Shown here: piece by piece, positions 9,487 to 21,930 of the stretch
Layout of the letters: every line of letters begins with the position of its first letter
How positions within the stretch are numbered: position 1 is the stretch's first letter
Assembly: GCF_024529975.1 (NCBI RefSeq)
Contig: NZ_AP024897.1
Span: forward strand, 1,364,001 to 1,428,000
Reading direction: 5' to 3'
Origin: Vibrio quintilis
Lineage (GTDB): Bacteria; Pseudomonadota; Gammaproteobacteria; Enterobacterales; Vibrionaceae
DNA: 64,000 nt
The notes under the pieces: generated by a model
Told to the model about the DNA's origin: nothing
Databases searched by the model: none
What the model saw: only the letters and a program-made list of their open reading frames with translations
Position numbers and translations under genes: made by a program

Positions 9487-9885
9487 GAAAATGAATCCTG
9501 GTGCAAAGATGAAGTGATGTCATTTTTACATCATCGTCAGTGACGGAACAAACAGAGAGTCTTATTTCATTGATTTGAGTCAGTTTCTGCAGGCGTTCTG
9601 TGTCACTGGTGTAATATCGCACACCGGTTTCCTGCCTGGGTGGCATATCTGATGTGTTTGTTTTTTAATCAAAACAAAAATAAAAAGCGAAATAACTATA
9701 TATTGTTCCCACAAAGTGTATAGTATCAGCGGCTAAAATAGCGGGCTATTAATGAAATATTTAGTTCAAGATCTTCTCAGTTTTTTTTCGATTAAATTCG
9801 ACATATTTATTCTGCGATACCTTTTTCTTTATTCCTGATTTAGTAGCTTCTGTTTTTAACTTGTTCATGTATCGAGATATATAGT
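9487..9885. other. norR-csp intergenic region
   Basis: No protein gene is supported. It holds the palindrome at 9515-9533 and, from about 9700, AT-rich sequence leading to the cold-shock gene that is likely its long 5' untranslated leader. Confidence 0.55.
9515..9533. promoter_or_regulatory. Palindrome, candidate NorR site
   Basis: TGATGT-CATTTTT-ACATCA is a perfect 6-bp inverted repeat with a 7-bp spacer and contains the GT-N7-AC core described for NorR. It lies about 30 bp upstream of the norR start. One isolated site is weaker than the usual three-site NorR enhancer. Confidence 0.45.
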
Positions 9886-10098
9886 ATGTCAAATAAAATT
9901 ACTGGTTCAGTAAAATGGTTCAACGAATCCAAAGGATTTGGTTTTATCAGCCCGGATGATGGTAGTGCCGATGTGTTTGTTCACTTCAGAGCTATTGAAA
10001 GTGATGGTTTCAAAACATTGGCTGAAGGCCAGAAAGTTGCGTTTAACGTAGAGCAGGGCGCCAAAGGCCCTCAAGCTGCGAACGTTACTGTCGTGTAA
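9886..10098 (+). CDS. Cold shock protein, CspA family
   Basis: A 70-residue single OB-fold nucleic-acid-binding protein, the usual size of the family. Both RNA-binding motifs are visible: KGFGFI (RNP1) and VFVHF (RNP2). It is thought to melt RNA secondary structure. The preceding AT-rich region of about 180 bp fits the long leader typical of csp genes, which is often thermoregulated. Whether this paralogue is cold-induced cannot be told. A weak hairpin (about 10109-10148) follows the stop codon. Confidence 0.95.
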
Positions 10099-10108
10099 CG
10101 ATGTTCAA

Positions 10109-10148
10109 AGAGATCCCGTTCATTACCTGTTGATGGCGGGGTCTTTCT
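10109..10148 (+). terminator. Probable terminator after csp gene
   Basis: AAAGAGATCCCG and CGGGGTCTTT can pair across an intervening loop. It lies just after the cold-shock stop codon. The T tract is short, so this is a moderate call. Confidence 0.45.
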
Positions 10149-10259
10149 GCACCAGTGTCTGGTGAGTAGCCATTGAATCGAAAATTAACAGAAATCAATA
10201 TTGAAATTGCATCTGCGTGAGCAGAAAAGCGATGAGATTTTTGTGTCAAAGGAGGCGTT

Positions 10260-12848: not shown

Positions 12849-13239
12849 GTTTTTTAATCTTTTGCAGGTAAAACAGGATTATATCCCTTTATTGATCCAA
12901 TGATCTGTTACAGAACATGACAATTTGAATAAAGTCGCTGCGCAGGTGTATGGAATGTTTAGCCGGGACAGGCGCCTCAGGTTGCGGGGACAGACGCCTC
13001 AGGTTGCGGGGACAGGCGTCTCAGGTTGTCAGGTTGCGGGGACAGACGCCTCAGGTTCTGCGGGGACAGACGCCTCAGGTTCTGGGAACAGATCCCTCAG
13101 GTTAACGGGGACAGACGCCCGATTCCGGGGACAGACACCCGATTCACCGGCGGGCTCTCCGGTCAACCCCGGTTGACTTTTTGTTTTACTTTGTGTTTTT
13201 TACAATTCGTTCAATTAAAAATCATATTCAGGAGTATCT
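12849..13239. other. Intergenic region occupied by repeat array
   Basis: It contains the tandem GGGGACAG array (12963-13145). Two plus-strand reading frames of about 80 codons overlap the array and encode repetitive Gly/Arg/Thr peptides; they are repeat artefacts. AT-rich sequence (13170-13235) leads into the GNAT gene. Confidence 0.65.
12963..13145. repeat. Tandem array of about eight GGGGACAGACGCCTCAGGTT units
   Basis: Eight head-to-tail copies of a roughly 20-24-bp unit are visible. The first six carry ...CTCAGGTT, and the last two switch to ACGCCCGATTC / ACACCCGATTC endings. The invariant core is GGGGACAG[AG]C. The same core recurs singly in other intergenic regions around the RAYT gene. 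Confidence 0.85.
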
Positions 13240-13920: not shown

Positions 13921-14847
13921 ATGGCTATCTACGAAAATATCGAAACATTCTGGAATTTGCCGGTTGAGGCTTATAATCCGGAAAAAGGCATCCAGAATGA
14001 GTCAGCAGCGATTCGGTTGGGTGTGGACTATGAGGCCGCGGATAGCGGGGCAAAATTGATCACATTGCTGAAGCAGCTGACCGCTGATCCGAAAGCGGGT
14101 GCGATCAAAGCACTGGTGCTGGGTGAGTGGGAAGAATCTTATGAGACCGGTGCGTCAGAGTTCATCGATTTTCTGGTTGAGCAGGCGTCGACATTCCACA
14201 GCCTGAAAGCTGTATTTATCGGTGAGATGACCGTCTCTGAAAATGAAATTTCCTGGATTGTTCAGGGCGATTATCAGGCATTCTGGGATGCTTATCCGCA
14301 GCTTGAAATGTTGACGATTCGTGGTGGTAATGAGCTCAGACTGGGTAAAACCATTTCTCACCACAACCTCAAACAACTGGTGATTGAGAGTGGCGGGCTT
14401 GGCCGTGATGTTTTGCGACAGATTGCCAATGCTTCATTACCTGCGCTGGAACATCTGGAGCTGTGGCTGGGCGATGAAAACTATGGCTGGGATGGCACGT
14501 CAGAAGATATTCACTCATTACTGTCAGCGACACGTTTTCCAAAACTGAAACATCTGGCGCTGAAAAACAGTGAAATACAGGATGAAGTGGCGCAGTTGCT
14601 GGTGCAAAGTGAGATTCTGCCTCAGCTGGAAAGCATTGATATGTCGATGGGTGTGATGAGTGACACCGGCGCGCAGGCTTTGTTGCTGTATAAAGACCGG
14701 CTTATCGGAAAATCCTTCGATCTGTCTCAAAACTACCTGTCTGATGAGATGGTGAATCAGCTGAAAGCTGCTGGCCTGAATGTGAAGGCGGACGATCAGG
14801 ATGAGAGCGATGATGAAGATGATCGCTACGTGTCTGTTTCTGAATAA
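13921..14847 (+). CDS. STM4015 family leucine-rich-repeat protein
   Basis: A 308-residue cytoplasmic protein, first of a six-gene operon. The N-terminal 130 residues resemble an alpha/beta segment (IKALVLGEWEESYE). Leucine-rich repeats follow, for example LPALEHLELWLG, FPKLKHLALKNSEI, LPQLESIDMSMGV and LIGKSFDLSQNYL. The last 20 residues are strongly acidic (DDQDESDDEDD, then YVSVSE). I recognise this as the LRR member of the uncharacterised STM4011-STM4015 set. Its stop overlaps the next start (TAATG). Its role is unknown; it could be a scaffold, recognition subunit or substrate of the adjoining enzymes. Confidence 0.85.
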   Translation: MAIYENIETFWNLPVEAYNPEKGIQNESAAIRLGVDYEAADSGAKLITLLKQLTADPKAGAIKALVLGEWEESYETGASEFIDFLVEQASTFHSLKAVFIGEMTVSENEISWIVQGDYQAFWDAYPQLEMLTIRGGNELRLGKTISHHNLKQLVIESGGLGRDVLRQIANASLPALEHLELWLGDENYGWDGTSEDIHSLLSATRFPKLKHLALKNSEIQDEVAQLLVQSEILPQLESIDMSMGVMSDTGAQALLLYKDRLIGKSFDLSQNYLSDEMVNQLKAAGLNVKADDQDESDDEDDRYVSVSE

Positions 14848-16022
14848 TGGCTGTCACCTGTTCCCGGCTGTGGATTTATATTGGTCATCCTGAAAACCGG
14901 CGCAAACAGTTTTTTACTCAGTCGCTGCCGGACGGCGAAACGCTGGTGGTGCTGAGTTATCAGGCACTGCTGGCGGCTCCTTGCCTCAACAGTTACCTGC
15001 TGCACCAGCTTCATGGCTATGAGGCCGGGCAGTGGCTGGTAAAAATTGATTCTCCCGGCGAGAATTTTGCGGTTGAAAAAGCATTGTTAAGCAGGGCGCA
15101 GCCCGGTCAGTATGACGACCTGACTTTTGACAAAGGTTGTTTCCGCCATCTTAAGTTCTGGTTTGTTGCCTTTCGCCATCTGTTACTGGATCTGGCAAAC
15201 ACCCTGCAAAGCCTTGCATCATCCAGCCAGACCCGACTCACTTTCCTCAATACCCCGGAAGCGATTATCACCATGACAGACAAACTGTCCTGTCAGCGAC
15301 GATTGATCGATCAGCAGGTGCCTGTTCCGCCGCTGTTGCCTGAGATGCAAAACTTTGAACAACTGACGGACTATATGCTGACTCACCGTTGCCGGCAGGT
15401 GTTTGTGAAAACCCGTTACGGTTCTTCAGCATCCGGTGTGATGGCACTGCGGGTGCATCCGGATGGCCGCCGGATGATTGCCAGAACCAGCCTTGAGCTG
15501 GGGACTCACGGCCGGTTTTATAATTCTCTGAAAATCAGAACTTATCAGGACAGGCAGGCCATTGCGGCATGTTTTGATGCGATATACAGCCAGCAGGGCT
15601 ATTGTGAGCACTGGCTGCCAAAACCTCAGCTGGCAGGACTGGGGTTTGATTTACGGATTCTGGTGATTGATGGCCGGGCGGCACATCATGTGACCCGCTG
15701 CAGCCGCTCGCCGATGACCAACCTGCATCTGGGGAATCAACGGGGAGACATTCTGCAACATCCGCAGGGAGAAATGTGGCTGATGCAGGCCCGGCAGGTG
15801 GCGGAACAGGCCGCAGCTGCCATACCCGGCGGGCGGTGTATCGGCGCGGATGTGATATGCGGGAAAAGTGGTTTACCTGCAAATTCTGCATCCGGCAGCG
15901 ATTCCTCTGAAATTCAGGCCCGCGTGCTTGAGCTCAATGCTTTTGGTGACCTGTTGCCCGGGATTGAATTTGATGGAATGGACAGCTGTCAGGCGCAGAT
16001 AAAGGCGTTGTTATGCGGTTAA
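14847..16022 (+). CDS. STM4014 family ATP-grasp protein
   Basis: A 391-residue protein. From about residue 140 it has an ATP-grasp-like fold: VFVKTRYGSSASGVMAL carries the nucleotide-binding lysine and small-residue loop, and a late ARVLELNAFGDLLPG carries the Glu/Asn magnesium ligands. ATP-grasp enzymes join a carboxylate to an amine or thiol through an acyl-phosphate, so an amide or peptide ligation step is inferred. The N-terminal third is family-specific. Its start overlaps the stop of the LRR gene and its stop overlaps the HAD gene start by 10 bp, indicating translational coupling. The natural substrate is unknown. Confidence 0.83.
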   Translation: MAVTCSRLWIYIGHPENRRKQFFTQSLPDGETLVVLSYQALLAAPCLNSYLLHQLHGYEAGQWLVKIDSPGENFAVEKALLSRAQPGQYDDLTFDKGCFRHLKFWFVAFRHLLLDLANTLQSLASSSQTRLTFLNTPEAIITMTDKLSCQRRLIDQQVPVPPLLPEMQNFEQLTDYMLTHRCRQVFVKTRYGSSASGVMALRVHPDGRRMIARTSLELGTHGRFYNSLKIRTYQDRQAIAACFDAIYSQQGYCEHWLPKPQLAGLGFDLRILVIDGRAAHHVTRCSRSPMTNLHLGNQRGDILQHPQGEMWLMQARQVAEQAAAAIPGGRCIGADVICGKSGLPANSASGSDSSEIQARVLELNAFGDLLPGIEFDGMDSCQAQIKALLCG

Positions 16023-16639
16023 TTTTTGATTTGGATAATACTCTGATAGATCGCGATGCTGCTTTTATCGCGTGTATTAAATCGTTGTTTTCTCAATATC
16101 GCGACACATTATCTGCAGATGAGCTGGCTGAAATATGTATGATGGACGGCTCAGGAAGAATTCCCAGAGTCGCGTTTTGCCAGGCATTGCAAAAACGTTT
16201 TGTTTTTCTTCCCCGTTGTTATGAAGATCTGTGGGCGCATTTTCGCTGTCTGCCCCGGTGGATTACACCTGATCTTCAGGTGAACCAGATGCTCGGCAGG
16301 CTTAGCCGGCAACATACGCTGGTGCTTCTGAGTAACGGCAGCAGTGAGATGCAACGGGAAAAGCTGGAACGGGCGGGTTTGAAAGACTGTTTTTCAATGA
16401 TCCTGATCTCTGGTGAAGAAGGGATTCATAAACCTGAACAGGCGATTTTTTTACGTGCCATTGCAGAGCACGATGTCAGTGATTGTATGATGATTGGCGA
16501 TGATCCGGTGCGGGATATCGCACCAGCCCGCGCGCTGGGATTACGTACCGCCTGGGTTTCACAGGAACCCGGCGACATTCACTGCGACTATAAAATACAA
16601 ACAATCAACCAGTTGGAAGAGATCCTCAAACATGCATGA
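16013..16639 (+). CDS. HAD superfamily hydrolase
   Basis: A 208-residue phosphatase-like protein with all HAD motifs: IFDLDNTLIDRD (nucleophile and acid Asp), LLSNGSS (motif II), the lysine in GIHKPEQAIF, and MMIGDDPVRDIAPA (motif IV). It most resembles small-molecule phosphatases of the HAD-IA type. It overlaps the ATP-grasp gene by 10 bp and the next gene by 8 bp, so it belongs to the operon, probably removing a phosphate from an intermediate. That pathway role is inference only. Confidence 0.9.
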   Translation: MRLIFDLDNTLIDRDAAFIACIKSLFSQYRDTLSADELAEICMMDGSGRIPRVAFCQALQKRFVFLPRCYEDLWAHFRCLPRWITPDLQVNQMLGRLSRQHTLVLLSNGSSEMQREKLERAGLKDCFSMILISGEEGIHKPEQAIFLRAIAEHDVSDCMMIGDDPVRDIAPARALGLRTAWVSQEPGDIHCDYKIQTINQLEEILKHA

Positions 16640-17444
16640 TATGAATCATATCGTCGGCAGTCATGATATTGTGCTGCTGACACTCGATACCCTCCGGTAT
16701 GACGTGGCACAGAATGAACTTGAGCAGGGGCGGTTGCCCGTGTTATCCCGCTATATTTCCCGCTGGGAGCCAAGACACAGCCCCGGTAGTTTTACCTATG
16801 CTGCTCATCAGGCATTTTTTGCCGGATTTCTGCCGACACCTGTTGATGACCCGCTGGCACCAAGACTGATGGCGGTTGATTTTCAGGGCAGCCGCTCTGT
16901 CGGGGCAAAGACGAAAGTGTTTGAAGCGGCAAATATTGTGGAAGGACTGACGAATGAAGGCTATCACACGATTTGTATTGGCGGCGTGGGTTTTTTCAAT
17001 TTGCAGACTCCGCTCGGGCGTGTGTTGCCCGGGATGTTTCATGAAAGTCACTGGCGCGAAGAAACCGGTGTGACCTCACCGGGCTCAACCTGCCATCAGG
17101 TGGACAAAGCACTTGAAGTGTTGAGACACAGACGAGGCGATAAGCGGATCTTTTTGTTCATGAATATTTCTGCGATTCATCAGCCGAACTATTTTTATCA
17201 TGGCGAAAAGGTCCTGCGGGGGATTACGGAGGATGATCTTGATTCTCATGCGGCCGCGTTAAGGTATGCGGACAGCCAGCTCGGCAGGTTATTTGATTTT
17301 TTCAGCTTCCGCCGCAGAACCATGTTTATTATCTGTTCTGATCATGGCACCTGCTACGGGGAAGATGGTTATCATGGGCACCGGCTGGCCAGTGAAGTGG
17401 TGTGGAAAGTTCCTTATGCTGATTTCGTGATGGAGGCTGGTTAA
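16632..17444 (+). CDS. STM4013 family alkaline-phosphatase/sulfatase-fold hydrolase
   Basis: A 270-residue member of the alkaline phosphatase superfamily. The N-terminal motif LLTLDTLRYDVA holds a metal-binding Asp (Asp19) and the expected Thr nucleophile region. The C-terminal IICSDHGTCYGEDGYHGHR supplies further metal ligands. No Cys-x-Pro-x-Arg formylglycine motif is seen, so it is not a classical sulfatase; phosphodiester or phosphoryl-transfer chemistry is more likely. It has no signal peptide, so it is cytoplasmic. The start MHDMNH at 16632 overlaps the HAD stop. Its stop overlaps the next ATG (TAATG). Confidence 0.85.
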   Translation: MHDMNHIVGSHDIVLLTLDTLRYDVAQNELEQGRLPVLSRYISRWEPRHSPGSFTYAAHQAFFAGFLPTPVDDPLAPRLMAVDFQGSRSVGAKTKVFEAANIVEGLTNEGYHTICIGGVGFFNLQTPLGRVLPGMFHESHWREETGVTSPGSTCHQVDKALEVLRHRRGDKRIFLFMNISAIHQPNYFYHGEKVLRGITEDDLDSHAAALRYADSQLGRLFDFFSFRRRTMFIICSDHGTCYGEDGYHGHRLASEVVWKVPYADFVMEAG

Positions 17445-18793
17445 TGGACGCGGAAATTCATGATTCGATTGAACAGGTGCTCAATGGACCTGTGTATCAG
17501 GCTTATGCGTATTCTTACCCGCATAAGACCGCTTACCGTGCTTTTGAGCAACCGGTCCCGCTGGAACAGGTCTGGCAGCCGGAAAAGAAAGATGCGCTGT
17601 TTTTGTATGTTCACGTGCCGTTTTGCAGTATGCGTTGTGGGTTTTGCAATCTGTTTACGCTGGTGAAGCCGGAGCAAACGCTGCCTGATCTGTATCTTGA
17701 TGCTTTATCCCGCCAGATCGAAGCGCTCAGACCGGTGATTGAGCAGGCCGGTTTTGCCCGCTATGCCATCGGTGGCGGCACACCGACGTATCTGACGGAA
17801 GCACAGCTTGACCGTTTATTTACCCTGACGGACTTTGCCGGGATTCAGCCCAATACGCCTACTGGTATTGAATGCTCGCCGGAGACGATCACTGCCGGAA
17901 AAATAAAACTGCTTGCAGAGCGGGGCGTCAGCCGGATCAGCATGGGCGTTCAGTCGTTCACTGACGCGGAAGTGAAAAATCTGGCCAGAAAGCAGGATAA
18001 CCGTCAGGTCAGTCAGGCGATTGATTTGATTCGTACCGGCAGCCAGGCGGATCTGAATCTGGACTTAATCTATGGTATTGCCGGGCAAACCGTCACTTCA
18101 TGGCTGCACTCACTGCAGGAAGCGCTCAGATTTAATCCGGAAGAACTATATCTGTATCCGTTGTATGTCCGTGCAGCAACCGGGCTGGGAAAAATCAAAG
18201 CCGGTGACAAATACATGCCGGATTTAACCGATACGGACCGTCTGGCGCTTTACCGGGCTGGCCGGGATTATTTACTCAGCCAGGGTTACCGGCAAATCTC
18301 GATGCGGATGTTCCGCCGGGCAGATCTTAATGATGCGGACATGCCGCTGTATTCCTGCCAGCAGGACGGTATGCTCGGGCTGGGTGCCGGGGCGCGTTCT
18401 TATACACAGCGGCTGCATTATTCTTCTGAATATGCGGTTGGTCGTCACGGGGTTAAAGCGATTATTGATCACTATCATTCGCAGTCGCAGGAAGATTTCT
18501 CTGCAGCCCGCTATGGTATTGTATTGAGTGAGGAAGAGCAGCGGCGTCGGTTTGTGATTCAGTCGCTGCTGATTGCGGACGGGCTGGACAGAGTTGCCTA
18601 CCAGCAACGGTTCCGTCAGGATTGTATGGCAGATTTTCCGGCACTGCAGCTATTGACAGAACGGGGTCTGGCACGGCAGACAGACATCAGCCTGATACTG
18701 ACTGAGGCTGGTGTTGAGCGGGCCGACAGTATTGGCCCGTGGTTGACATCGGCGGCTGTGCGTCAGGCGATGCATGGCTATCAGATGGCCTGA
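17444..18793 (+). CDS. STM4012 family radical SAM protein (HemN-like)
   Basis: A 449-residue radical SAM enzyme. The [4Fe-4S] motif is Cys61-x3-Cys65-x2-Cys68 in YVHVPFCSMRCGFC, followed by the HemN-like YAIGGGTPTYL and GIECSPETITAGK segments and a HemN-type C-terminal region. It resembles oxygen-independent coproporphyrinogen oxidase, but the operon has no haem genes and it belongs to the STM4012 family. HemN relatives can also act as methyltransferases or cyclopropanases. It is translationally coupled to the hydrolase gene upstream and lies 5 bp from the next radical SAM gene. Confidence 0.88.
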   Translation: MDAEIHDSIEQVLNGPVYQAYAYSYPHKTAYRAFEQPVPLEQVWQPEKKDALFLYVHVPFCSMRCGFCNLFTLVKPEQTLPDLYLDALSRQIEALRPVIEQAGFARYAIGGGTPTYLTEAQLDRLFTLTDFAGIQPNTPTGIECSPETITAGKIKLLAERGVSRISMGVQSFTDAEVKNLARKQDNRQVSQAIDLIRTGSQADLNLDLIYGIAGQTVTSWLHSLQEALRFNPEELYLYPLYVRAATGLGKIKAGDKYMPDLTDTDRLALYRAGRDYLLSQGYRQISMRMFRRADLNDADMPLYSCQQDGMLGLGAGARSYTQRLHYSSEYAVGRHGVKAIIDHYHSQSQEDFSAARYGIVLSEEEQRRRFVIQSLLIADGLDRVAYQQRFRQDCMADFPALQLLTERGLARQTDISLILTEAGVERADSIGPWLTSAAVRQAMHGYQMA

Positions 18794-18798
18794 ACGAC

Positions 18799-19665
18799 AT
18801 GGAGCTGGATATCACTTACCGCGGCCCTTTAAGCAGCTGTAATTATGATTGCGGTTATTGTCCGTTTGCCAAAACCTTTGACGACGCTCAAACCCGGCGC
18901 AAAGACAAAGCCGCGATTGAGCGGTTTTGTGACTGGGTCACATCGAGAAGCGGCACTGATGAACTGCGCATTTTGTTCACACCCTGGGGCGAAGCTCTGG
19001 TCCGGAGCTGGTATCGCAGGGCACTGGTGCGCTTATCCCGCCAGCCTCATGTCAGGCAGGTGGTCATTCAGACAAATATGAGTGTGGCGACCGACTGGCT
19101 CAGGCAGGCTGATCTGAATACGCTGAGTTTGTGGATTACTTATCATCCGTCTCAAATCAGTCTGGAGCAGTTTATGGCGAAGGTCCGTGAACTGGATACG
19201 CTGGGGGTCAGATACAGTGTCGGTATTGTGGGGACGCGGGAGCATCAGGCGGTCGCACGTCAGCTCCGTCAGCAGTTAAACCCGGCGGTTTATCTTTGGG
19301 TGAATGCATATAAAGATGAGCCATCTTACTATCAGCCGGAAGACATTGCTTTCTACCGGCTGATTGATCCCTGGTTTGAGTTAAATCTGCAGGATTATCC
19401 CAGCGAAAATCAATCATGCCATGCCGCCGTCACGGCTGTTTCAGTGGATGGTGACGGTGATGTTTATCCCTGCCATTTTGTTAAACAGACTTTGGGGAAT
19501 CTCTATCAGACAGAATTGCATCAGCTATTGCAGCCCGGTTATTTTTGTCCGAATTTCTCGTGTAACTGTTATATCGGTTACATTCATTTACAAAATATAA
19601 AACCGGCACAAGTGTTCGGTAAAAATAAATTTGAGCGTATTCCTGTTCAGTGGGAGCAAACATAA
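18799..19665 (+). CDS. STM4011 family radical SAM protein
   Basis: A 288-residue radical SAM enzyme, last in the operon. The cluster motif is Cys14-x3-Cys18-x2-Cys21 (SSCNYDCGYC), very near the N-terminus. The C-terminal quarter has more cysteines (QSCHAA, VYPCHF, YFCPNFSCNC), as in SPASM/twitch proteins that bind auxiliary Fe-S clusters and often act on peptides. The ATG at 18799 is chosen because it precedes the family start and lies 5 bp after the upstream stop; an in-frame upstream ATG lies inside the previous gene. Peptide modification is a reasonable guess. Confidence 0.87.
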   Translation: MELDITYRGPLSSCNYDCGYCPFAKTFDDAQTRRKDKAAIERFCDWVTSRSGTDELRILFTPWGEALVRSWYRRALVRLSRQPHVRQVVIQTNMSVATDWLRQADLNTLSLWITYHPSQISLEQFMAKVRELDTLGVRYSVGIVGTREHQAVARQLRQQLNPAVYLWVNAYKDEPSYYQPEDIAFYRLIDPWFELNLQDYPSENQSCHAAVTAVSVDGDGDVYPCHFVKQTLGNLYQTELHQLLQPGYFCPNFSCNCYIGYIHLQNIKPAQVFGKNKFERIPVQWEQT

Positions 19666-20750: not shown

Positions 20751-21099
20751 TCTGCTGTGAATGTCCTGTCGGTCAGGGATCTGAGTGACACGATTCCTTG
20801 ATGCTTGTTAGCCTATTGTTAATTTAATGATAATCTATTGTGCTGTTATCGTGTTGATTTTACATTTATTATCACATATAGTGATTTAACTATTATTTAA
20901 TTAAATCGTATTTTTTGTATTTTTCTTTTACCATAATCTTCCTTTCTTTGTTTCTTTTTCATTAAATCCTGTAAAAAAATATTCAATTAACATTTTACAC
21001 ATCAATATATTGATGATACTTATATACATGTATATGAAAATATACGCATGTGTTTAATTATCATTGATTCACAAAGTGATTCACACAAAGGAAGTGCAA
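20751..21099. other. AT-rich promoter region of the protease gene
   Basis: No gene, RNA or clear repeat is seen. It is very AT-rich, with several possible -10 elements, as expected upstream of an exported-protein gene. Confidence 0.4.
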
Positions 21100-21930
21100 A
21101 TGCAACTAAATATAAAAAAAGTTTCTGCCTGTCTTGCGTTATCTGCGATCGCCGCATATCCGCTTGCCAGTGCAGCTTCGTCAGATGTCTCAAAAATTAT
21201 TAACGGAACGAAGTCGCCTCAGGGGCAGTGGCCTTTTATGACGGCTGTTGTGTCAAAAGGCAGTAGCGCTTACTACGGTCAGTTCTGTGGTGCAAGCTAC
21301 ATTGGTGGCGGTTATGTATTGACAGCAGCACACTGTGTGGTGGACACCACCGCCAGTAAAATTGAAGTTGTTATCGGGCTGAACAATCTGAGTAAAGAAA
21401 GCTCAGAAGGTGTGCGTGTTGGCGTGAAGTCTATCTCAGTCCACAGTGGTTACAATTCAAGCACGATGCGCAACGATATGGCTGTGCTTAAACTGAAGAA
21501 AAATGTGGATGCAACACCAGTGAAACTGGCTTCTTCTTCTGAAGCGGCGGCGTTATCATCCGGCGACAGTATGGTTGTGATGGGTTGGGGGAACCGCTCA
21601 ACAAGTGGCAGTTCATTCCCTGATGCGCTTTATCAGGTGACTGTACCATTTGTTGATTTGGGTACCTGTCAGAGTCCTGGCGGTAGCTACAACAGTGTCT
21701 CTTATGACAATGTGTGTGCCGGTTTGAAACAGGGTGGTAAAGATTCCTGTCAGGGCGACAGTGGTGGTCCGCTGGTGCGTAAAGTTGATGGCGTTTACAA
21801 ACAGTTTGGTGTTGTCAGCTGGGGTATCGGTTGTGCGCAGCCAAATGCTTACGGCGTGTATTCTAATGTCGGTTATTTTGATTCTACCGGCTGGCTTGAA
21901 GCACATACGCCAGGCTTAGATTTGTACTGA
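21100..21930 (+). CDS. Secreted trypsin-like serine protease (S1 family)
   Basis: A 276-residue chymotrypsin-fold protease. A Sec signal peptide (about residues 1-26, ending ASA) is followed by a short propeptide and the activation site KIINGT, as in trypsinogen. The catalytic triad is visible: His78 in TAAHC, Asp126 in RNDMAVL and Ser221 in GDSGGPL. Asp215, six residues before the serine, predicts cleavage after Lys/Arg. The start at 21100 has an AAGGAAG ribosome site and removes 12 non-signal residues. Unlike many Vibrio S1 proteases it has no C-terminal GlyGly-CTERM or extension. It is monocistronic, followed by a strong terminator. Confidence 0.92.
   Translation: MQLNIKKVSACLALSAIAAYPLASAASSDVSKIINGTKSPQGQWPFMTAVVSKGSSAYYGQFCGASYIGGGYVLTAAHCVVDTTASKIEVVIGLNNLSKESSEGVRVGVKSISVHSGYNSSTMRNDMAVLKLKKNVDATPVKLASSSEAAALSSGDSMVVMGWGNRSTSGSSFPDALYQVTVPFVDLGTCQSPGGSYNSVSYDNVCAGLKQGGKDSCQGDSGGPLVRKVDGVYKQFGVVSWGIGCAQPNAYGVYSNVGYFDSTGWLEAHTPGLDLY

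Follow-up and report, generated by a model that had tools for sequence, protein, structure and literature searches.

Several described systems perform their chemistry at the C-terminus of a protein or peptide. The amino-group carrier protein (AmCP) systems of lysine and arginine use LysW, a small acidic carrier ending in Glu (motif EDWGE), with an adjacent ATP-grasp ligase of the LysX group and the enzymes LysZ, LysY, LysJ and LysK. LysX, ArgX and RimK are ligases that target the C-terminal end of another protein, which for LysX and ArgX is a Glu, and RimK polyglutamylates ribosomal protein S6. Pearlins (TglA/TglB, TmoA/TmoB) involve a carrier peptide on whose C-terminus the chemistry takes place and a tRNA-dependent PEARL ligase, with a radical S-adenosylmethionine (SAM) step in Tmo (as described in passages of PMC9303977), and graspetides (PsnB/PsnA2) pair an ATP-grasp enzyme with a peptide substrate. 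Here we compare these systems with the STM4015-STM4011 gene set of Vibrio quintilis, located at 13921-19665 of a 64,000-nucleotide stretch of DNA (hereafter, the window), in which the leucine-rich repeat (LRR) protein STM4015 is probably the substrate or carrier.

The set comprises six open reading frames (ORFs), all on the + strand, whose neighboring ends overlap or nearly touch, in agreement with the initial annotation of a six-gene STM4015-STM4011-type run. Five of them (STM4015, STM4014, STM4013, STM4012 and STM4011) passed the curated NCBIfam cut-offs. The sixth, a haloacid dehalogenase (HAD) protein, passed only generic HAD models and had a relative in 4 of 80 related loci, so that the conserved unit is five genes with the HAD gene optional. 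The five proteins are members of NCBIfam families whose models carry Salmonella locus names and state no function. The STM4014 family may be mentioned in a 2009 work by Iyer et al. on ATP-grasp amidoligases. The literature searched listed no study of what the STM4011-STM4015 set does; STM4013 or STM4015 are named in tables of two papers, and passages of PMC4431377 and PMC8939145, both on ATP-grasps, do not contain an LRR term.

In common with the AmCP systems, the locus encodes an acidic protein ending in Glu next to a LysX-group ATP-grasp enzyme, and STM4015 would take the part of the carrier. It differs in that this protein is an LRR protein of ~300 residues rather than a small LysW homologue, that its tail follows the pattern R-[YF]-x-[AS]-V-x-E where LysW has EDWGE, and that radical SAM and alkaline-phosphatase-fold enzymes are encoded in place of LysZ, LysY, LysJ and LysK, none of whose families was among the matches of the six proteins. 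As STM4015 is not a LysW homologue and does not have the LysW motif, STM4011-STM4015 was not classed as an AmCP member. The RimK/S6 pair shares the ATP-grasp fold group and the use of a protein C-terminus as target, but here the LRR partner is encoded next to the ligase, with radical SAM enzymes. C-terminal chemistry on a carrier, as in pearlins, is what we propose for STM4015, although a PEARL ligase was absent among the six proteins and an ATP-grasp enzyme would stand in its place. Graspetides have in common the ATP-grasp enzyme (PsnB is a close fold match) and the peptide substrate, whereas the STM4015 tail lacks a conserved acceptor residue. By analogy, the set may work like an amino-group carrier or RimK-type system.

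The C-terminal tail of STM4015 and the STM4014 ligase

STM4015 (13921-14847, + strand; 308 residues) is very acidic, with an isoelectric point (pI) of 4.4 and a net charge of -30, and matched NF038076 with 306.9 bits (cut-off 275). The mean predicted local distance difference test (pLDDT) score of its AlphaFold model was 92.2, and the sole segment of at least three residues with pLDDT <50 was the C-terminal tail (residues 297-308; 14809-14844, + strand), which is predicted to be disordered. Within this tail lies the conserved heptapeptide RYVSVSE (residues 302-308; 14824-14844, + strand), whose terminal Glu308 corresponds to a last-position Glu in all 29 aligned sequences. More generally, the pattern R-[YF]-x-[AS]-V-x-E stands directly before the stop codon of STM4015 copies, after a variable acidic linker. 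Numbered back from the stop in 105 copies (window included), Glu was found at -1 in 104, Val at -3 in 94, Ala at -4 in 85 and Arg at -7 in 90, while position -6 was occupied by Tyr (n = 80), Phe (n = 21), Ser (n = 3) or Asn (n = 1). The entropy was 0.08 bit at -1 versus 2.4-3.6 bits at -12 to -30. The terminal Glu was present in 95 of the 96 copies from the 80 related loci, and in all 113 distinct tails obtained from a separate protein database (best 120 of 786 matches), a figure biased by a ranking profile that contained the tail itself. One form of the tail pattern had two matches in the V. quintilis genome, of which one was STM4015 and the other contained an in-frame stop. A solved relative is available from Bacteroides fragilis (2ra8, 362 residues); the final column of the profile falls on its residue 354.

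The initial annotation had noted that no precursor peptide or exporter was evident. Six small ORFs of the region were tested as a separate precursor and none was conserved in its own frame; they matched the V. quintilis genome only, or elsewhere overlapped STM4012 or STM4014 in another frame, and a hidden short precursor ORF was dismissed. Given its conserved, predicted-disordered tail ending in Glu, STM4015 is probably the missing precursor, as substrate or carrier, which revises the first part of that statement. The second part held, as family searches found neither an exporter nor a protease among the six proteins. An ABC-ATPase-like ORF occurred near 13 loci only in the neighbor survey, at variable positions.

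The adjacent gene encodes the ATP-grasp ligase STM4014 (14847-16022, + strand; 391 residues, pI 8.2), which overlaps STM4015 by 1 nt and matched NF038074 with 307.2 bits (cut-off 175). Its nearest sequence matches in the PDB were LysX/RimK, and its model (pLDDT 91.4) had RimK, LysX and ArgX as best fold matches, with RimK tied for the best. The eight best fold alignments were at 14-19% identity, LysX and ArgX being distant relatives and RimK equally near. The motif TNLHL (residues 291-295; 15717-15731, + strand) was invariant in 21 sequences and aligned with TNTAR of Thermus LysX. In chosen subsets of sequences, STM4014 was basic in contrast to the very acidic STM4015, and the median pI was 6.2 for STM4013, 5.8 for STM4012 and 7.6 for STM4011.

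From the computed gene unit, tail, ligase kinship and charge contrast we infer an action of STM4014 on the tail, and consider it reasonably probable that this action on the C-terminal Glu is covalent. In the proposed mechanism, STM4015 would be an acidic LRR scaffold with a disordered tail in which the terminal Glu is functionally essential. STM4014, as a LysX/RimK-type enzyme, would use ATP to activate the carboxylate of this Glu and join an amino compound (an amino acid or amine) to it by an amide bond. The SPASM-type STM4011 and the HemN-like STM4012 (possibly a class C methyltransferase) may then alter the tethered group or tail residues, STM4013 with its putative Thr nucleophile, plus the HAD protein where present, may transfer or remove phosphate, and extra STM4015 copies may be alternative substrates. 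Charging of the terminal Glu by STM4014, followed by changes that the other enzymes make to the tail or to the group attached to it, is the best explanation, to which we give slight overall preference. The order of steps, the cargo and the fate of the product, released (carrier) or retained (protein maturation), are speculative. A peptide or metabolite modification system, as first suggested for this locus, remains the best reading, and a set that NCBIfam and the papers searched name only by Salmonella locus tags gains a testable mechanism with a named substrate, residue and first enzyme.

The five genes as a unit and variant loci

A profile search of genome contigs with STM4011 gave at least 583 relatives, of which the loci of the best 80 were kept. 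STM4015 was detected in 73 of these loci, STM4014 in 71, STM4013 in 77, and STM4012 and STM4011 in 80 each. All five genes were present in 71 loci, 67 of them in the order 4015-4014-4013-4012-4011 on one strand and four otherwise arranged. Nine loci were incomplete, and in four of these the start lies no more than 3 bases from the end of the contig. Four STM4015 copies were found in 3 loci, two in 14, one in 56 and none in 7. Doubled STM4011 entries were read as overlapping out-of-frame ORFs of GC-rich DNA, and no STM4011 copy count was drawn; the STM4011 and STM4012 rows of the C-terminal position analysis are affected in the same way.

Because these loci had been picked through STM4011, each gene was also sought independently in 147 genomes from the actinobacterial order to which Streptomyces luteolifulvus (genome G180, locus L054) belongs. 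The cut-offs were passed by STM4015 in 65 genomes, STM4014 in 63, STM4013 in 63, STM4012 in 66 and STM4011 in 65; 63 genomes had all five genes, 78 had none and 6 had part of them (G189, G235, G275, G290, G307 and G320). Fisher values for this co-occurrence take no account of relatedness among the genomes. In a draw of 396 genomes from the wider phylum, STM4015 and STM4014 were confined to the same 6 genomes. Tree distances of the four enzymes correlated at 0.83-0.89 in 28 loci, and those of the enzymes with the LRR body without tail at 0.63-0.74. Co-occurrence, gene order and correlated distances support the view that the genes form a unit. The unit also stands after a search for independent occurrence, which the initial annotation had named as a refuting condition: 6 of the 69 genomes with any of the genes lack others, and STM4013 paralogues also occur alone.

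Hosts belong to Pseudomonadota, Bacteroidota, Planctomycetota, Verrucomicrobiota, Chloroflexota, Myxococcota and Actinomycetota, and plasmids of Bacillota and Deinococcota bring the total to nine phyla. Presence in 63 of 147 genomes, on plasmids and in nine phyla indicates that the chemistry is common. Among these loci, the nearest relative of that in V. quintilis was from Thaumasiovibrio occultus (67% identity in STM4011). In a draw of 180 Pseudomonadota genomes, the STM4015 cut-off was passed in one, V. quintilis itself, which has a single STM4011 match. A megablast search (near-identity only) of 5,426 Escherichia coli genomes for the Salmonella operon gave zero matches.

Nine variant loci (L144-L149, L155-L157) encode STM4015, a diverged STM4014 (in L147, 90 bits with NF038074, below the cut-off) and a trypsin-like protease, and no radical SAM gene was found within the 7-11 kb covered. 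The Glu tail was kept in all nine, and all nine genomes carry the full operon elsewhere. Genome G189 has no STM4014, STM4013, STM4012 or STM4011 over the cut-off (a short STM4011 fragment is left) and two STM4015 copies, both tailed; at one of its loci (L130), the protease gene is adjacent and only a 26-bit ATP-grasp trace lies beside STM4015. The protease gene is a neighbor at all 10 variant-type loci. The three-gene set of Glu-tailed STM4015, diverged STM4014 and trypsin-like protease was not met in the papers searched. Nine genomes that carry the operon have, in all, eleven STM4015 copies outside it, and the tail was kept in 10 of these copies. In G320, which has no other operon gene over the cut-off, the single STM4015 copy (L132) is without the tail. 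It has the same new ending as the tailless copy L133 of an operon-bearing genome, so the two probably represent one lineage and are no proof of dependence.

The window itself contains an ORF at 21064-21930 that we read as a putative secreted protease of the trypsin-like kind. A comparison at E 1e-4 with the ORFs of the searched loci, variant-locus proteases included, gave no relative, and its proximity to the set is therefore probably coincidental.

Alternative readings of the tail

Several observations weigh against the action of STM4014 on the STM4015 tail. The covalent modification of STM4015 is a step that we infer, and product release is unsupported because the core has no protease or exporter. 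The tail differs from the LysW motif EDWGE, the Salmonella tail (MNAMYTE) has little beyond the final Glu in common with the others, and one of four Catenulispora rubra copies, the exception among the 80 loci, ends in Ala. STM4013, STM4012 and STM4011 are not markedly basic, unlike the described LysW enzymes. Taken domain by domain, STM4014 resembles LysX only weakly (i-Evalues ~0.3), and PsnB, a graspetide ligase, ranked second in the Foldseek search (E 1.5e-10). Tails of the variant and outlying copies may be kept for the full operon, as the same genomes hold it; the L133 copy lost its tail in the presence of an operon, and the genomes examined included only one with STM4015 yet no other operon gene.

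A second, and rather doubtful, explanation is protein maturation, in which the C-terminus is extended and the LRR protein retains this modified end and needs it for its function, comparable to the action of RimK on ribosomal protein S6, with no small molecule released. Its probability overlaps that of the best explanation, which leaves the fate of the product open. The position of RimK as a tied best fold match of STM4014, the missing protease and exporter, the 17 of 80 loci with two or four LRR copies of differing bodies, and the tail retained away from the operon are all consistent with it, but a pair of radical SAM enzymes together with a phosphate enzyme would exceed the needs of a simple tag. 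The presence of a SPASM-type radical SAM protein alongside a conserved C-terminal stretch, and of a trypsin-like protease gene at all ten variant-type loci, would also suit a pathway like those of ribosomally synthesized and post-translationally modified peptides, with STM4015 as a precursor with a folded leader whose tail is modified by the radical SAM enzymes (at the aromatic residue -6 and Arg -7) and cleaved as the product. We consider this improbable, as only Glu is near-universal in the tail, position -6 varies as given above, and no protease is among the six proteins, a trypsin-like neighbor being confined to the variant-type loci.

A graspetide-like role, in which STM4014 forms internal ester or amide crosslinks in the acidic tail, appears the least credible of these, even though PsnB is a high-ranking fold match and Asp and Glu together occupy on average 7.1 of 18 tail positions. 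Lys, Ser, Thr and Cys were all absent from the last 14 residues of 18 of 104 tails (36 of 104 if the last two residues are ignored), which indicates that no graspetide acceptor is conserved, and none of the 33 PDB sequence matches of STM4014 up to E 1 was named a graspetide ligase. Such ligases were also absent from the best 50 of a fold comparison ranked by Z score, which carries no weight for exclusion. Finally, the tail could merely be a docking or recognition motif, with a free small molecule as the substrate of STM4014. Its linker-tail anatomy equally suits a binding motif, in which Arg -7 (the second invariant site) and the hydrophobic residues could serve, but the last residue is the most conserved position and relatives of the ligase act at such C-terminal ends, making this unlikely.

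Returning to STM4014 charging the tail Glu, a more far-reaching and tentative version would make LRR proteins a new class of amino-group carriers, loaded in a LysX-like manner, built upon by radical SAM enzymes and later relieved of their product. It would span from Salmonella and Vibrio relatives to ~4 in 10 sampled genomes of a large actinobacterial order. If true, protein-tethered biosynthesis would reach beyond LysW-type carriers, acyl carrier proteins and pearlin peptides, and the locus would represent an undescribed route to a modified molecule or protein tag.

Other enzymes, neighboring genes and minor features

STM4013 (16632-17444, + strand; 270 residues) is a hydrolase or transferase of the alkaline-phosphatase superfamily that overlaps the HAD gene by 8 nt; its start was set by homology (the longest ORF would begin at 16494). 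Matches to NF038075 (385.1 bits, cut-off 250) and PF00884 (39.8 bits) support the phosphatase/sulfatase fold of the initial annotation, though the Cys or Ser of formylglycine sulfatases is missing. At the putative nucleophile site, placed by our own reading of the alignment, is Thr55 (codon 16794-16796, + strand), with Thr in 81 of 86 aligned rows and a gap in 5, and with Thr invariant in a further alignment; D19, D237, H238 and H250 are also conserved. With Thr where Cys or Ser is required, a formylglycine sulfatase with an anaerobic maturase was ruled out, and the substrate may be a phosphate rather than a sulfate ester.

STM4013 paralogues without other core genes were seen at L006, L150 and L151, the first on a Streptomyces plasmid, where NUDIX and lasso-B2-like genes are its neighbors. 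Agrobacterium plasmids (L007) encode a sulfatase-like protein ~26% identical to STM4013, and no STM401x neighbors are annotated around the sulfatase-like gene of pTi-SAKURA. A Salmonella Infantis plasmid record (L008) holds STM4011-4015 plus typA, glnA, glnL and glnG, which we take to be chromosomal genes, and STM4013 is also present in another plasmid record.

Both radical SAM assignments, one HemN-like and one with extra cysteines, were confirmed. STM4012 (17444-18793, + strand; 449 residues; 1 nt overlap with STM4013) matched NF006067 with 571.2 bits (cut-off 380) and has a CxxxCxxC motif (C61, C65, C68; 17624-17647, + strand) invariant in 17 sequences. Its PDB matches included HemN (1olt, E 9.1e-60) and the radical SAM methyltransferase NocN (9p2u, 6.2e-38). 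The HemN motif CxxxCxFCGC contains a fourth Cys, presumably with a role in HemN, and STM4012 has CNL for CGC in the 1olt alignment; with this motif absent, a heme enzyme (HemN coproporphyrinogen dehydrogenase) is unlikely. STM4011 (18799-19665, + strand; 288 residues) follows after a 5 nt gap, with its start set by homology (the longest ORF would begin at 18739), and matched NF038073 with 374.5 bits (cut-off 200). Its CxxxCxxC motif (C14, C18, C21; 18838-18861, + strand) and SPASM-like C-terminal cysteines (C207, C225, C250, C255, C257; 19417-19569, + strand) were invariant in 25 sequences. Pfam gave PF13186 (SPASM) at 23.4 bits and PF04055 at 21.0 bits, below its cut-off of 29.5, and the only solved relative by profile was SkfB, weakly (E 0.0047).

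The HAD-type phosphatase-like protein (16013-16639, + strand; 208 residues; 10 nt overlap with STM4014) matched PF13419 with 75.6 bits. Its relatives sit between STM4014 and STM4013 in L010, L012, L017 and L080 only, which ruled it out as a core gene. A second HAD group (Cof type, as annotated in Salmonella) is encoded next to the core or in its vicinity in L008, L005, L060, L065 and L079, and Cof-type HADs are also near 8 of the 10 variant-type loci.

A DUF6745 gene was detected in 52 of the 89 stretches searched (L001-L088 plus the window slice, some truncated where a contig stops) and is therefore considered accessory. It recurs beside the core with a 98-residue protein that has no Pfam or NCBIfam match (L004, L005, L014, L043, L046, L073 and others), and the C-termini of the six best DUF6745 proteins read YxPxxE[TA]. 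Both were dismissed as part of the core.

An anti-phage system was also dismissed, as the two radical SAM proteins alone had PADLOC matches, and these were weak. Of four of the six proteins tested against PHROGs, STM4011 had weak radical-SAM matches, and with STM4013 as the one query, no close relative was found encoded on viral contigs. STM4013 occurred in three records of a phage collection, two of 2-6 kb and one of 156 kb from Salmonella Infantis, probably host or plasmid DNA.

Elsewhere in the window, GC-rich tandem repeats of ~22 bp (GGGACAGACGCCTCAGGTT-like) lie at 12965-13136, upstream of a GNAT gene, and a cspA thermoregulator RNA (Rfam RF01766, 117.1 bits) was detected at 9728-10149.

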